Assembly (NCBI GenBank): GCA_024275115.1 | Contig: JAJRZT010000098.1 | Location: 62,001-126,000 of the forward strand | From: Gammaproteobacteria bacterium | GTDB taxonomy: Bacteria; Pseudomonadota; Gammaproteobacteria; UBA6429; Thiohalophilaceae | Reading direction: 5' to 3' | DNA: 64,000 nt | Shown: in pieces, positions 46,381-54,409 of the stretch | Layout of the letters: the number at the start of each line of letters is the position of its first letter | Position numbering within the stretch: the stretch's first letter is position 1 | The notes under the pieces: model-generated | The model's input: the letters and a program-made list of their open reading frames with translations, nothing else | Database searches by the model: none | Told to the model about the DNA's origin: nothing | Program-made: the position numbers and the translations under genes

Positions 46381-46494
46381 GGTTGCGCTACACGAAATGG
46401 CTTTAGATATAGTTATTGTTCGGTTTTTCGCGGTATAATCACCTTAATGTTTTAAACTTACCAGGCTTAAATTTATTATTTTAGGGGATTTGTG

Positions 46495-46803
46495 ATGGCA
46501 ACAACGGTTGATGAGCTAACTGTAAATTATGAAGAAGATGGTCGCATTGTTTCAAAAGAATTAGACAAGGTTATCCTGACGAAAGGTGCCTGGTCGACTA
46601 TTATTTTTCGTTATCAGGATTTAGATCGCAAAACGGATGAGTTTGGTCCGGATAAATTCAGTATTCGCCGTTATCAGAAGCGCAATGGTGAGTATCAGTA
46701 TAAATCGAAATTTAATATCTCAAGCCGCGATCAGGCCACTAAGGTGGTGAATGCGTTAAATACCTGGTTAGCAGAAGAGCCTGATGATAAAGCCGAAAAG
46801 TAA
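46495..46803 (+). CDS. Small conserved protein, unknown
   Basis: A 102-residue soluble protein; the ATG at 46495 follows a tagggga site. The fold looks beta-rich at the start (LTVNYEEDGRIVSKELDKVILTKGAWSTIIFRYQDLD) with charged helices at the end. The pattern GAWSTIIFRYQDLDRKTDEFGPDKFSIRRYQKRNGEYQYKSKFN looks conserved, but I cannot name the family. A TATAAT at 46434-46439 may belong to its promoter. Confidence 0.7.
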   Translation: MATTVDELTVNYEEDGRIVSKELDKVILTKGAWSTIIFRYQDLDRKTDEFGPDKFSIRRYQKRNGEYQYKSKFNISSRDQATKVVNALNTWLAEEPDDKAEK

Positions 46804-46831: not shown

Positions 46832-48331
46832 CTAGCTGTGTGTAAAATGTACCTGTTCTGTATCAAGGCTTTGTGCCATAAAAAAAGAATGGGCAAATTC
46901 GGTTAGTGACTCAGGAATAGCGGAATAAATATCTACATTGGCCAGATCGACATGGTCTTTTATCAGGCTTGAAAGACAGGCTGAAAATACATCCTGACTC
47001 GGTGTTTCGTTGTGACTAAGATGGGCAACATTGATTGCGGTATATTTAAAATTATCCAGTGCATCATTCCATGCACGGCAAATATTATGCAGGTAAGGTT
47101 TTTCGGCCTGGGTGTTAATCCAGTAAAAATGAATATATTCGGCTGCTTCCAGGCTAAGTGCATTTTCAATTAAACTTTTAACTGGAGCAAATCCGGTATC
47201 CACCGCGATAAAAATAATCGGTTTCGTTGAATCTTTATCTAATACAAAGTGGCCACTTGGGCCGTCTACTTTTACGGTGTCACCGGTTTTTAATTCATTA
47301 TTAAGGCAGTGGCTAAAGGGTGAGCTATTGTTTTCAATGTGGAACTGGATAAAAGACTCATCACACGGGCAGCTTGCTATGGGTAATGTTGCTATAATTT
47401 TGTCTTTTAATTTAAGTTCAACTTCCTGACCAGCTAAAAAACGCAGCCGTTTTGTTCGTTGCGTTTTTAATGTAAGCACAGAGACATACTTGTTTAGCGG
47501 TTCTATTTTCTTTACTTTTGTAGACAGTGACTGTTGTGGAATATCTTCTTCGCTGCCTGCAATTTCGGCTTCAATTTCAATATCGGTAACGGCGGTATTC
47601 GAGCACATTAAAAAATAGTTTTGAGTTTTTTCTGCCTCAGGAAAAGCATATTCATGCTGCTTTGTTTTTTCAATTTTCCCGGAGATGAGTTTTGCCTTGC
47701 ACTTGCCGCAATTACCATTGCTACAACCATAATTGAGTGCACTCCCTGTCGTTAATCCGGCTTCAAGGATAGAATTTTTTCCTTCGACAAAATACTCAAG
47801 CCCGCTGGGAATAATATGTACCTGGGCGGCCATAATGCGTAACAAGTCATCTTTTTGTATTAACGGCGCTATTTGCGGGGTATTGGTTGTGATGTTTTTA
47901 TCCGTCTTGTTTAGCCATTCTGTCAGCGATTTATAAATAGTAGCAGCATCATTATTTTTATTTGACTGTTCTGCAATATGGTCTTGTAATTTATCAAGTA
48001 ATTGTTCGTTGTGGTATAGCGCTATTTTGGTTTCGGCTAATTCTTTACTTAAGTTAGCAAGGCGTGACGCAAGTGTGGCTGTATCGGGTGTAATCAGCTT
48101 TTGAAATTTTGCATAGCGGGCACGCTTAAGTGCATTGGCGATAAATTCTTCGATTCGTTCAAACATCTCATCTTTTTCAATCTCGGAATCCGGGTATAGT
48201 TTTACAAGTTGTGAGAGTTTGATCTTGCCTTCAAAACTGGTGAGTTCACCATTTTGAATATGCTTCTGGATAATACCGCGGGGTACACCTACAATGGATG
48301 CGGCTCGTGATGCTGAAAGTAGTCTGGCCAT
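46832..48331 (-). CDS. HTH-like N terminus + [2Fe-2S] ferredoxin + FNR-type reductase fusion
   Basis: A 499-residue fusion. ATG 48331 (MARLLSASRAASIVGVPRG) has an aaggaattt site; the earlier start at 48403 is rejected. Residues 1-50 resemble a MerR/excisionase-like helix-turn-helix (SRAASIVGVPRGIIQKHIQNGELTSFEGKIKLSQLVKLYP). A helical coiled-coil linker (55-150) follows. A plant-type ferredoxin domain has ligands in YGCSNGNCGKCKAK near 201-209 plus a later MCSN. The C-terminal 240 residues are an FNR reductase with GDTVKVDGPSGHFVL and FIAVDTGFAPVKSL; the usual RxYS flavin motif is LPIAS. A redox-responsive regulator or electron-transfer protein is possible; no oxygenase partner is adjacent. 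Confidence 0.82.
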   Translation of the reverse strand: MARLLSASRAASIVGVPRGIIQKHIQNGELTSFEGKIKLSQLVKLYPDSEIEKDEMFERIEEFIANALKRARYAKFQKLITPDTATLASRLANLSKELAETKIALYHNEQLLDKLQDHIAEQSNKNNDAATIYKSLTEWLNKTDKNITTNTPQIAPLIQKDDLLRIMAAQVHIIPSGLEYFVEGKNSILEAGLTTGSALNYGCSNGNCGKCKAKLISGKIEKTKQHEYAFPEAEKTQNYFLMCSNTAVTDIEIEAEIAGSEEDIPQQSLSTKVKKIEPLNKYVSVLTLKTQRTKRLRFLAGQEVELKLKDKIIATLPIASCPCDESFIQFHIENNSSPFSHCLNNELKTGDTVKVDGPSGHFVLDKDSTKPIIFIAVDTGFAPVKSLIENALSLEAAEYIHFYWINTQAEKPYLHNICRAWNDALDNFKYTAINVAHLSHNETPSQDVFSACLSSLIKDHVDLANVDIYSAIPESLTEFAHSFFMAQSLDTEQVHFTHS

Positions 48332-48474
48332 AAATTCCTTATAATATGCAAGATTAAAGTGTTTTTTTGCGTGAGTTCTTATATATTGGTACATATATAT
48401 CAATTGTCAAATCGTCCTTTCTTTAGAAAAGAAGCTACACTGGTATAAGCGCTGGTATTAATATGGGTATCTAC

Positions 48475-49896
48475 ATGGAAAGGTTCGGGATCATTTCTTT
48501 GCTTTTTGTTGCAGCCGTTATGGTGAATATGGCAAATGCGGCGCTGCCCGATCTTGAATTTAGTTTGCATAAGAACGGGCCTGCAAATATTGAACGTGCC
48601 AATAGTGGCCCAACCCTGCTTGTTATTGGAGGCATCCAGGGGGATGAGCCGGGTGGCTTTACTGCGGCTTCATTACTGGTGACACACTACAAGATTACAG
48701 CAGGACAGGTCTGGATTGTTCCTAATCTGAACTTTGAAAGTATTATAAAAAGATCCCGTGGTGTGTACGGCGATATGAACAGGAAGTTTTCAAAATTAAA
48801 GCAAACCGATCCTGAATTTGAAACAGTTCAAAAAATAAAGCAAATTATCACTTCACCGGATGTCGATATTATCTTAAATCTGCACGATGGCAGTGGTTTT
48901 TATAACGAGCAATATATTGATGCCCTGCATAACCCGCGACGCTGGGGGCAAAGTCTTATTATTGATCAGGCCAAAATTGAAATGCCTGGTATTGGGATAT
49001 CAGGTATTGAAAATACAGAAGCAGGGTCAGTCCAGTTCAATCATTTAGAACAATTAGGTCGGCAGGTTGTTGCTGATGTTAATGCTGCTATTCCGCAAAC
49101 GCTTCACCAGTATCGTTTGAAAAACACACATACTGCACTTGGCAACAAAGAAATGGAGAAAACACTCACCTATTTTGCCATTAACCACGCAAAACCAGCT
49201 TTCGGTGTTGAAGCAAGTAAACATTTTTTAACGCATAAACGTGCCTATTACCATTTGCTGGTATTAGAAGGTTTTATGAACAATATAGGTATTAAATTTG
49301 AGCGCAAATTTAATTTAGCTGAGGCTGATATTAAAAAAGCGATGTACGATAAGTTGCAGCTTGCCTTTTATAATAAGAAAATAGTTCTAGATGTTGCCAA
49401 TGCGCGTAAAAGATTAAATTATGTGCCACTAAAAAAGAATGCAGATATTGCCTATATTTCCGGTAATCCATTGGTTGCGGTTGTGAGTAAAAATAACCGT
49501 TTTAATGTGCGTTATGGTAATCGAAACTTAACTTCGCTTAAACCGTCATATTTTGAGTATGATGATTCTCTGGAAGACATTAAAATATCCGTCGATGGAA
49601 ATATCAAAAGTATTAGTTTGGGTAGTACGGTTGATGTACAACAGGATTTTAACGTTCACTCAATAGCTGGTTATCGTGTTAATGTGATTGGTTTTACCCG
49701 CAAAGGGGTGAGAGATGAAAGTAACCAGACCATTAAATTAAAAAATATACGAAGTCGTTTTTCTGTGGATAAACAATCAAAAATATTTCGGGTAGAGATT
49801 TATCAGGGAAAGAGATACTGTGGTATGATTTTAGTGCGCTTTAATGCCTTAAAACAAACAACCTTAATAGACAACGAAAGCCATTCAATAGCATAA
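48475..49896 (+). CDS. M99-type (Csd4-like) murein carboxypeptidase
   Basis: A protein of about 473 residues with a signal peptide (MERFGIISLLFVAAVMVNMANA). The catalytic domain resembles M99 peptidases (Csd4/Pgp1 of Helicobacter and Campylobacter), which trim murein tripeptides to dipeptides and control cell shape. The zinc site reads GGIQGDEPGG, with Gln in the place where most M14 enzymes have His, as in Csd4. HDGSGFYNEQYID and the FGVEASKHFL region follow. C-terminal beta-rich domains cover about 290-473. ATG 48475 fits the signal peptide; 48463 is also possible. It is followed by the FliB-like gene after 38 bp. Confidence 0.83.
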   Translation: MERFGIISLLFVAAVMVNMANAALPDLEFSLHKNGPANIERANSGPTLLVIGGIQGDEPGGFTAASLLVTHYKITAGQVWIVPNLNFESIIKRSRGVYGDMNRKFSKLKQTDPEFETVQKIKQIITSPDVDIILNLHDGSGFYNEQYIDALHNPRRWGQSLIIDQAKIEMPGIGISGIENTEAGSVQFNHLEQLGRQVVADVNAAIPQTLHQYRLKNTHTALGNKEMEKTLTYFAINHAKPAFGVEASKHFLTHKRAYYHLLVLEGFMNNIGIKFERKFNLAEADIKKAMYDKLQLAFYNKKIVLDVANARKRLNYVPLKKNADIAYISGNPLVAVVSKNNRFNVRYGNRNLTSLKPSYFEYDDSLEDIKISVDGNIKSISLGSTVDVQQDFNVHSIAGYRVNVIGFTRKGVRDESNQTIKLKNIRSRFSVDKQSKIFRVEIYQGKRYCGMILVRFNALKQTTLIDNESHSIA

Positions 49897-49934
49897 AGAA
49901 ATAAGAACCGAAAAATAATAACAGGGTTACATTG

Positions 49935-51209
49935 ATGTCTGAATTACTTTCTTTGCCTTATATGCAACAGTTTAAATGTATAGCGGATAAGTGTGAAGAT
50001 ACTTGTTGTCAGCATTGGCAGGTTAGAATAGATAAAGCACACTATCAGAGTATGCTGGAATGGGTAGGTGAGAACCCGTTACAGAAAAAACTTTTTTCTA
50101 CCTCCGTATTGTTAAATGAATCAAATATTGCATCGGATAAAAGTTATGCTTATATCCAAATGGATGATAATGGCTATTGTCCTTATTTAAACCCACAACA
50201 GCAATGCACCCTTCATATAAAGAAAGGAATTGATATTCTTTCTGATATTTGCGCCTTTTATCCAAGAATTATTACCGAAAAAAATTCAGTGCTGGAACTG
50301 AGTGGTGCTTTATCCTGTCCGGAAGTGGTTCGTTTGTGCTTGTCAGCCGACATTAACAGCCATGTTATGTTAAGCGCGGATAATGCCATTCTCCCACCAA
50401 GAGAAGATGTACCTGTTCATCGCACATTAATTACAGATGATAATAGTTCGGTTTATGAAATCCATTTTGAAAAAGTACAACAAACATTTATCGATATTAT
50501 CCGTATGGTTGATTGCGATTATTTTACTCGATTATATATTTTAGCGAGTTACTCACATTCAATTTCAACCATCTATTTTGATCATTGTCTTTCACTGGAT
50601 TCAGACGCGCTTGAAAATTACCGTCTGCATGTATTCGACCCGGACTATAAGCAGTCCGTTAATCACTTTATGGGACAGTATGAAAATGATCAGCCTCTTG
50701 CCTGTATTGTGATTTATTCGGTATTGTTATTAAAGCAGCAACAGGCGCCGGACGAAAAATTATCTACAATGGTTGCGGAGGTTTTTAATGAGTATGCGCA
50801 GCAGTTAGGCTTTTCAAGTTATAAGGATATTGAAAATGCAGCTGATTATGCCACTGTATTTCAAAAACGATATCAGATGTTTTCCAATAATGTTCACCAT
50901 CAGATTGAAGATTATTTAACTAAATATTTGTTAAACTGTTTTTACCGTGAATGGTTTATTACGATGCCTAACGCATTTATTTATATTCAGATGTTGCTGG
51001 TACGGGTTGCTATTATTCGCTTTATTATTTATAGCCGTATTTTACCCGGAATGACGGCGGAGCAAATTAAAGAAATATCTGTCGAAGTGATTTATCAGTT
51101 TGCTCGCGCGGTTGATCATAACCTGCCTTTTTTGCAGGTTGTGTATGAAGCTTTAAATGAGCAGCAAATGTTACATTTTGACTATTCAACGCCGCTTATT
51201 AAATTTTAA
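49935..51209 (+). CDS. FliB-like lysine N-methylase family protein
   Basis: A 424-residue protein of the FliB family of flagellin lysine-N-methylases. The N-terminal cysteine motif FKCIADKCEDTCCQHWQVRID and later DDNGYCPYLNPQQQCTLHIKKG...CAFYP and GALSCPEVVRLC match the family, whose cysteines probably bind an iron-sulfur cluster. The ATG at 49935 follows an acaggg site. No flagellar gene lies in this window, so the target protein may be something else. It may be cotranscribed with the M99 peptidase. Confidence 0.87.
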   Translation: MSELLSLPYMQQFKCIADKCEDTCCQHWQVRIDKAHYQSMLEWVGENPLQKKLFSTSVLLNESNIASDKSYAYIQMDDNGYCPYLNPQQQCTLHIKKGIDILSDICAFYPRIITEKNSVLELSGALSCPEVVRLCLSADINSHVMLSADNAILPPREDVPVHRTLITDDNSSVYEIHFEKVQQTFIDIIRMVDCDYFTRLYILASYSHSISTIYFDHCLSLDSDALENYRLHVFDPDYKQSVNHFMGQYENDQPLACIVIYSVLLLKQQQAPDEKLSTMVAEVFNEYAQQLGFSSYKDIENAADYATVFQKRYQMFSNNVHHQIEDYLTKYLLNCFYREWFITMPNAFIYIQMLLVRVAIIRFIIYSRILPGMTAEQIKEISVEVIYQFARAVDHNLPFLQVVYEALNEQQMLHFDYSTPLIKF

Positions 51210-51327
51210 ACCTTTCTTATTGTATGTCATTAAATTCTTCTTTTATTATCAGTCTGTTACGTGAATACAGCACTTTTTGTTAAATATTGATAAAATAGCA
51301 GGCCTATATGGTAGTCCGAGGTTTGTG

Positions 51328-51720
51328 ATGGAAGAATTAAGTAAAGAAGACAGTTTGTCATTAACAAAAATGATAATCGGCATTCTTGAAAGCTGGGGTT
51401 TGAATGCTCGCCAGCAACACACCTTGTTAGCTTTTTCGAATAAGGTTCCTATTCGTGGCATGCGCCGCTTCCAGCAAGATCGTGCATTTCCTGATGAAGC
51501 TGAACTGAATAGCCGGGTAGAGCATATTGTGGGCATTCATCATGCCTTGCATACAACCTATCCACATAACCCGGCGATGGGTGCATTATGGATTAAAACA
51601 AGTAATAAACGTTTTAACAATCAGTCACCGATTAAATTGATGCTCGAAGAAGGGACAAAGGGTGTTGAGCGAGTTCGGTCGCATCTGGATTGTGCTTATG
51701 ACTGGCAGGTAAACCCGTAA
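51328..51720 (+). CDS. MbcA/ParS/Xre antitoxin-like protein without an adjacent toxin
   Basis: A 130-residue protein. The start MEELSKEDSLSLTKMIIGILESWGLN at 51328 follows gtccgagg; the ORF start at 51277 is less likely. The helical N terminus and the C-terminal domain (SRVEHIVGIHHALHTTYPHNPAMGALWIKTSNKRFNNQSPIKLMLEEGTKGVERVRSHLDCAYDW) match the MbcA/ParS toxin-binding (DUF2384-like) family. No RES-type toxin gene is beside it; the next genes are on the other strand. It is probably a solitary chromosomal version. Confidence 0.82.
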   Translation: MEELSKEDSLSLTKMIIGILESWGLNARQQHTLLAFSNKVPIRGMRRFQQDRAFPDEAELNSRVEHIVGIHHALHTTYPHNPAMGALWIKTSNKRFNNQSPIKLMLEEGTKGVERVRSHLDCAYDWQVNP

Positions 51721-51741: not shown

Positions 51742-52203
51742 TTATTTTTTTCGGCTTTTACGTTTAGGTCGACCTTCATAGTTTACAATCGAACGCACCA
51801 GGTTTTCATAGGGAAGGCATTGGATAGTATGGTGTTTATTTAAGCTGTCAGTGAGTAAAGTATAAATATCCTCTATCTTTTTGCCTTTTCCTATTTCGAC
51901 ATTATTGTCTAATGCTAAGCCAATAATACTGCCCATCTGAACTTTTATTTCCTTAGCATGGGGGAGTGGGCCGCTGTGATTTTGTAACTTCAGTGCGAAT
52001 AAAGATTTAGAACGTAAGATTTGCAAAAAGGAAGTGCAAAGATTGCAAGCATCTTGTGCGTGACATGCAACCGCCTCTCGGTCGGCTAAGCGGATTTTAT
52101 TTGCCTGATGGCAACTTGTCTGGCGGCTGTTAATGGCTTTTTCATAAACACACTGGCGTGTGATGATATTTCGATAGGTGTTACGGTACTGATCTTCGTC
52201 CAT
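51742..52203 (-). CDS. Unknown protein with cysteine motif
   Basis: A 153-residue soluble protein that I do not recognise. It has five cysteines in its N-terminal half, with the spaced motif CHAQDACNLC near 68-78 that could bind a metal. The C-terminal end is very basic (GRPKRKSRKK). No signal peptide or membrane segment. It lies 15 bp after the 79-residue gene and is probably cotranscribed. It converges on the MbcA/ParS-like gene. Confidence 0.55.
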   Translation of the reverse strand: MDEDQYRNTYRNIITRQCVYEKAINSRQTSCHQANKIRLADREAVACHAQDACNLCTSFLQILRSKSLFALKLQNHSGPLPHAKEIKVQMGSIIGLALDNNVEIGKGKKIEDIYTLLTDSLNKHHTIQCLPYENLVRSIVNYEGRPKRKSRKK

Positions 52204-54106: not shown

Positions 54107-54409
54107 TTATTTTTCCGGTTCGTCAACCGGTTTTGCTTTGGCAGATTTGATGTCGGTTATTGATACCACCACGTTTTTAGGTGCTTCATCAATATATCGT
54201 GGGCGGCTTGCACTTACATCACTTGAATGACCCGACAATTCAACTTCACGCACACTAATGAGTTTTAAGCATTCGCGCATATTATTGATAGTGGTATCAC
54301 AGAGCGGGTGGCGTAGCCCAGGTCGGGTAAAAGTTTCTTTTGCAATATCGGTCAAAATGCGTTTCATCGCGGTTAAAATTTCCTGCTCGGTAACTTGTTG
54401 ATCTGACAT
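54107..54409 (-). CDS. Small conserved protein, unknown
   Basis: A 100-residue protein. The N-terminal half is helical with TEQEILTAMKRILTDIAKETFTRPGLRHPLCDTTINNMRECLKLISVREVEL, a pattern that looks conserved among gammaproteobacteria. The second half (RPRYIDEAPKNVVVSITDIKSAKAKP) is probably flexible. Relatives are sometimes labelled as segregation and condensation protein A-like, but I cannot support that. It stands alone before the YdcH gene with 99 bp between. Confidence 0.6.
   Translation of the reverse strand: MSDQQVTEQEILTAMKRILTDIAKETFTRPGLRHPLCDTTINNMRECLKLISVREVELSGHSSDVSASRPRYIDEAPKNVVVSITDIKSAKAKPVDEPEK

Follow-up and report, generated by a model that had tools for sequence, protein, structure and literature searches.

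SoxR, a redox-sensing regulator of the MerR family, combines a winged helix-turn-helix (HTH) domain and a coiled coil with a [2Fe-2S] cluster, and MerR-family proteins act on promoters with 19–20 bp spacers by distorting the DNA. Many excisionases carry a basic wing, and excisionase-like folds can also mediate protein contacts. Control of the dsr operon in sulfur oxidisers is, to our knowledge, poorly understood. In Allochromatium vinosum, the function of DsrS is unresolved (PMC3368242), and DsrR is implicated in regulation (PMC11406059).

Here, we describe a gene family that is a candidate for linking Dsr with both a DNA-binding fold and a redox module in about 40 gammaproteobacterial families. 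The focal gene lies in a 64,000-nucleotide stretch of gammaproteobacterial DNA (contig JAJRZT010000098.1; hereafter the window), and its product, judged from sequence and predicted structure, probably acts in bacterial sulfur oxidation as a sensor or regulator not described before. If this is true, it would be an unusual electron-transfer enzyme turned sensor, equipped with a DNA-binding domain. Two more uncharacterised Dsr-linked proteins emerge alongside it, a stand-alone reductase half and a four-cysteine protein, D13. Among openly licensed papers, we found nothing relevant on such a fusion or on a dsr-linked regulator of this kind.

Domain architecture of the focal protein

The focal gene (46832..48331, minus strand) is an uninterrupted frame of 499 codons, with an ATG at 48331 that is preceded by AAGGA. 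Homologue alignments begin at the methionine of 48331, and the in-frame TTG further upstream, at 48403, was therefore rejected as the start. A promoter scan gave no signal above shuffles. Pfam matches in the 499-residue protein comprise Fer2 (residues 173–244, E = 1.6e-8), FAD_binding_6 (residues 271–362, E = 3.5e-6) and NAD_binding_1 (residues 375–478), the last at 21.2 bits, slightly below the 22-bit cut-off; the Fer2, FAD-binding and NAD-binding order is that of BenC-type reductases. No NCBIfam equivalog was reached by the protein, the best being BenC with 110 bits against a cut-off of 430, and elsewhere in the genome the only related protein found was a canonical 340-residue reductase of ~30% identity.

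A preliminary description of this DNA had proposed an FNR domain in the same chain as a DNA-binding-like N terminus, and had noted no adjacent oxygenase. Both points hold, with the NAD-binding match just under its cut-off: no oxygenase gene was found among the neighbours of the focal gene, and the loci of relatives that we examined likewise lacked linked oxygenase genes.

Predicted fold of the N-terminal half

Since a fold search with the whole protein saw only the reductase, the N-terminal domain was modelled alone, using 28 aligned homologues as AlphaFold input. The model shows a β-HTH-hairpin-helix arrangement across residues 4–45 (pLDDT 80–93) and, together with HTH_17 matches in relatives, defines a putative excisionase/BldC/MerR-like winged HTH at residues 1–48 (48188..48331, minus strand). 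A Foldseek search against the PDB returned mycobacteriophage Pukovnik Xis as the top match (4j2n, probability 1.00, TM-score 0.74 by target), followed by BldC–DNA complexes (6ama, 6amk) and, lower, by RacA, gpNu1 and MerR-type proteins (HiNmlR, CueR and CvkR, with weak E-values); E-values for the domain reached 0.036 at best, which is weak because the domain is tiny (50 residues). The excisionase/MerR-like N terminus read earlier from the sequence thus reappears as a fold match of residues 1–50 to Xis, BldC and MerR, and a winged HTH was predicted when the structure of the region of residues 1–60 was compared with MerR and excisionase folds.

At the sequence level, a PDB search with the N-terminal module returned coiled-coil and Fis noise only. 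The Pfam model HTH_17 (PF12728) matched 27 of 35 diverse N-terminal modules at E-values of up to 1 (best 6.9e-6), and the window protein's own HTH gave no Pfam HTH match. The 25 families listed for these modules included HTH_17, Fis and others, with no MerR model among them. One standalone module resembled an NCBIfam plasmid-replication DNA-binding family across both HTH and coil (1e-5, below the family cut-off).

Residues 1–50 are conserved across at least 66 full-length homologues, at identities down to about 31–34%. A10, A11 and G35 are invariant, and R18, Q22 and E34 are each present in 67 of 68 sequences. The putative DNA-reading helix (stretch 17–31) is conserved and mostly basic, with a mean net charge of +2.5, and the first 48 residues average +3.3. 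The predicted fold, the size and the conserved AA...GVxR...Q...I pattern resemble those of excisionase, BldC and HTH_17 domains. The focal family differs from them in being fused to a coil and a redox module, and in its putative wing hairpin, where the near-invariant E34-G35 stands in place of basic residues, so that DNA contact by this domain may be weak or absent.

Behind the HTH, residues 84–150 (47882..48082, minus strand) form two long helices according to DSSP of the model (84–124 and 129–150). They fit a coiled coil at modest confidence, as the preliminary description had supposed, and this part is kept in standalone N-terminal modules too; a coiled coil serving self-association is a probable reading of the model. 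The resulting plan of N-terminal winged HTH, dimerising helix and C-terminal sensor resembles that of MerR and SoxR, although the focal domain is closer to Xis and BldC than to MerR. In SoxR, moreover, the sensor is a short, compact four-cysteine loop, whereas here it would be an entire ferredoxin-reductase module, with its cysteines in a plant-type Fer2 domain.

A remodelled redox module

The plant-type [2Fe-2S] ferredoxin domain, assigned from Pfam Fer2 and conserved cysteines (residues 173–254; 47570..47815, minus strand), retains the site C203-x4-C208-x2-C211...C243, with all four cysteines present in 94 of 94 homologues. It is followed by a FAD-binding-6-like barrel (residues 271–362; 47246..47521, minus strand), which by motif comparison is without RxYS: where the canonical paralogue of the same genome reads RSFSIANAPH, the focal protein reads ATLPIASCPC. 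At the RxYS position, the family has a variable stretch that ends in IASCPC, and the homologue alignment shows a Cys-Pro-Cys (residues 321–323; 47363..47371, minus strand) in which C321 and P322 are found in 94 of 94 homologues and C323 in 93 of 94. The NAD-binding-1-like domain (residues 375–478; 46898..47209, minus strand) has VDTG in place of GGTG by alignment; RxYS is gone and GGTG is changed in nearly all family members. Within this domain lies a family signature, CR(S/A)WxDALDNF (residues 418–428; 47048..47080, minus strand), whose C418 is kept in 65 of 68 fused and 22 of 26 short forms. The plant-type iron-sulfur site and the altered flavin-binding motif noticed earlier are both borne out by these alignments. 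We rejected the missing cysteine of the C-terminal CGPP as a diagnostic feature, as the canonical paralogue also has AAGR.

Oxygenase reductases of the BenC/T4moF/MmoC type are the best relatives of this half in both sequence and fold and share its domain order. The focal family differs from them in having neither RxYS nor an oxygenase partner, and in possessing the C-P-C, the winged HTH, the coiled coil and a Dsr context.

Fused and split forms of the family

For the comparison of genomes, the HTH-and-coil half is termed N, the reductase half (short, HTH-less, with IASCPC) C, and the fused gene NC. When each species was represented by a single genome, a scan recovered full-length relatives at about 36–88% identity in gammaproteobacterial metagenome-assembled genomes, animal symbionts and cultured Sedimenticola, so the fusion is conserved and not a one-off. 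A search for the same domain order and its neighbours found the full-length architecture in at least 66 homologues and, in some lineages, dsr or signalling genes nearby. Among 369 gammaproteobacterial genomes, the full-length form occurs in about 37, short IASCPC proteins in many more, and N alone in 66, as a single copy except in one genome. At the phylum level, matches above the threshold came from 7 of 299 genomes, six of them within the same class.

In seven loci (L072, L075, L076, L077, L126, L128 and L130), a split pair was found in which the N gene lies directly 5' of C. A tree of 93 sequences places the fused forms in one group (support 100/99) with one short member inside, and this near-single clade, together with the adjacent split genes, indicates that the two halves belong together. 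The pattern suggests, as far as sequence can, that two genes with a pre-existing joint function were fused once. Of the 66 N genomes, 54 also have C (odds ratio 76). C is found without N in 17 of 71 C genomes, so the C module can act without DNA binding.

Association with Dsr sulfur oxidation

With dsrA called by TIGR02064 as a whole gene or strong fragment, dsrA was carried by 72 of the 80 genomes that had N or C, compared to 8 of 58 control genomes without N, C and D13, which were taken from those without matches and not at random. Because of this choice, and because shared ancestry inflates p-values, the count by family is the fairer one: 40 of 42 families with N or C, against 7 of 51 without.

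Gene order points in the same direction. In one clade (L009), the dsr operon finishes with dsrO-dsrP-dsrN-dsrR-histidine kinase-NC-response regulator and so includes the fused gene, with gaps of 4 and 17 bp between kinase, NC and regulator; the kinase has HisKA_3 and HATPase_c domains and the regulator Response_reg and GerE. Elsewhere, C closes the dsr operon behind dsrS (L193, L180, L185 and L194; dsr...NRS-C in the first two), lies behind dsrS about 10 kb from dsrA (L195), or follows a second dsrAB copy and D13 (dsrAB-D13-C, L079). Like dsrS and dsrR of A. vinosum, family genes thus occur at the operon terminus, the label 'DsrS' being given here by position and length, without comparison to the A. 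vinosum sequence. The reductase half differs from DsrS in being the product of a gene of its own, beside dsrS in the same operon: we rejected the identity of C with DsrS, since in L180, L185, L193 and L194 a separate gene of 376–385 codons occupies the dsrS position, behind dsrR directly or via a two-gene insert, and C comes after it. In L193 (2675-4818, minus strand), the short IASCPC reductase and dsrS share 1 bp, an overlap that points to a joint function.

Relatives from the window's own family have dsr operons (L189, taken from a complete genome of the genus; L179, L181 and L192) that finish with dsrR-kinase-regulator-rhodanese, two genes being inserted there in L192, and their fused gene is elsewhere. 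In this family and a second clade, NarX/NarQ-like kinase and LuxR-type regulator genes stand at dsr operon ends (L189:13190-15519, plus; L179:3681-5998, minus; L009:3338-7135, plus) and constitute a candidate dsr two-component system; a rhodanese gene accompanies the pair. The focal gene in the window lies outside any dsr operon, and the 83%-complete assembly yielded neither dsrA nor dsrK. A complete genome of the same genus does contain dsrA. Of the genus-mates, G649, which also shows the kinase-regulator pair, and G650 have both dsrA and a homologue of full length, and G648 (84% complete) has such a homologue without dsrA.

D13 is an uncharacterised, Dsr-linked protein that is almost confined to dsrA genomes. 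Its gene in the window (51742..52203, minus strand) encodes 153 residues with four invariant cysteines (C18, C31, C47 and C56) and has no match in Pfam or NCBIfam. D13 was present in 92 of 369 gammaproteobacterial genomes and in 62 of 71 C genomes; when genomes with D13 only were tested, 22 of 22 had dsrA (19 whole, three fragments). Its gene adjoins, overlaps or neighbours C in L079, L082, L089 and L129, and by this context D13 is likely to be a functional partner of the reductase half.

GGDEF/EAL proteins or kinases flank family genes in several lineages. Signalling genes made up 14 of 160 adjacent genes compared to 6 of 416 at a distance of 4–7 genes (p = 8e-5, about six-fold), with open reading frames called mechanically, so that some neighbour tables of high-GC loci contain spurious antisense frames. 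In most loci, the window included, no signalling gene adjoins the family gene.

Proposed role and alternative explanations

Taking fold, motifs and gene context together, we give a probability of about 0.5 to the reading that the focal protein is a one-component, DNA-binding sensor and regulator, responsive to redox state or sulfane sulfur and tied to the reverse-Dsr pathway of Gammaproteobacteria. Its Xis/BldC/MerR-type winged HTH would bind DNA, its coiled coil would form a dimer or higher oligomer, and its [2Fe-2S] and FNR-like module would derive from an NAD(P)H-dependent reductase whose flavin site has been remodelled with an invariant C-P-C. The cluster, the C-P-C or both may sense the redox condition of the Dsr pathway or its sulfane sulfur; when cluster or thiols change state, DNA binding would change too, and dsr, genes associated with it or neighbouring signalling genes would be expressed differently. 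The partner could be the dsr-encoded NarX/NarL-type two-component system in some lineages and c-di-GMP enzymes in others. The preliminary description had proposed a transcription regulator or DNA-tethered electron carrier that responds to the redox state of NAD(P)H. A signalling or regulatory role is favoured by the kinase, response regulator and GGDEF/EAL neighbours; control by NAD(P)H would be conjectural, and the flavin motif is degenerate. The Dsr link, the strongest clue, suggests a more specific signal, either sulfur-pathway redox or sulfane sulfur, possibly sensed via the C-P-C. More tentatively, the family could represent a new class of one-component regulator, in which [2Fe-2S] and C-P-C sense sulfane sulfur or electron pressure and the Xis/BldC-type domain signals to the dsr regulon, these functions being divided between two proteins elsewhere, with D13 donating electrons or sulfur.

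The presence of C alone in dsr operons, at their end behind dsrS, and its adjacency to D13 keep alive a possible but doubtful alternative: an enzyme that transfers electrons within the Dsr pathway, a BenC/TmoF-type cousin moving them between NAD(P)H and DsrS, DsrL or D13, with the HTH fold used for protein docking only. T4moF and BenC are the best solved relatives, and the cluster cysteines are all retained; the loss of RxYS and the changed GGTG in nearly all members speak against an enzyme, as do the conserved HTH half, with its basic second helix and its matches to DNA-binding proteins, and the enrichment of signalling neighbours. Those same neighbours, together with the tight kinase-NC-regulator arrangement, would suit a scaffold tethered to DNA or the nucleoid that couples redox state to c-di-GMP or kinase signalling: the HTH would anchor the reductase module to DNA, with a GGDEF/EAL enzyme or histidine kinase as output instead of transcription; with most loci lacking an adjacent signalling gene, we consider this unlikely. 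A reductase of the ordinary oxygenase or flavin type that gained its N-terminal extension by accident would account for the recognisable BenC/MmoC homology. The conservation of the fused N terminus in at least 66 homologues from many families makes such an accident very unlikely, and an oxygenase reductase is rejected by motif (RxYS lost), by score (110 bits against the BenC cut-off of 430) and by gene context.

Other genes near the focal gene

An MbcA/ParS-like protein (Xre_MbcA_ParS_C; 51277..51720, plus strand) is encoded beside D13 in the window, and in five loci such a gene lies directly 5' of a standalone N gene, making it a possible associate of the N half. The same may apply to a conserved protein of about 100 residues (54107..54409, minus strand), a homologue of which is found beside the MbcA-like gene and a standalone N gene in L139, L140, L141 and L151. 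In another family (L187:6517-8967), a long and a short D13 paralogue lie on either side of an MbcA/ParS-like gene, recalling the D13 and MbcA-like pair of the window.

Divergent from the focal gene is a Peptidase M99 gene (helical cell-shape carboxypeptidase; 48463-49896, plus strand), which is kept beside the homologues in related species. The product of 49932-51209 (plus strand) matches the flagellin lysine-N-methylase FliB with 186.6 bits against a cut-off of 85. Convergent with the focal gene, 46492-46803 (plus strand) encodes another conserved protein of about 100 residues, and in L077 a homologue of it is found 5' of the split HTH gene.
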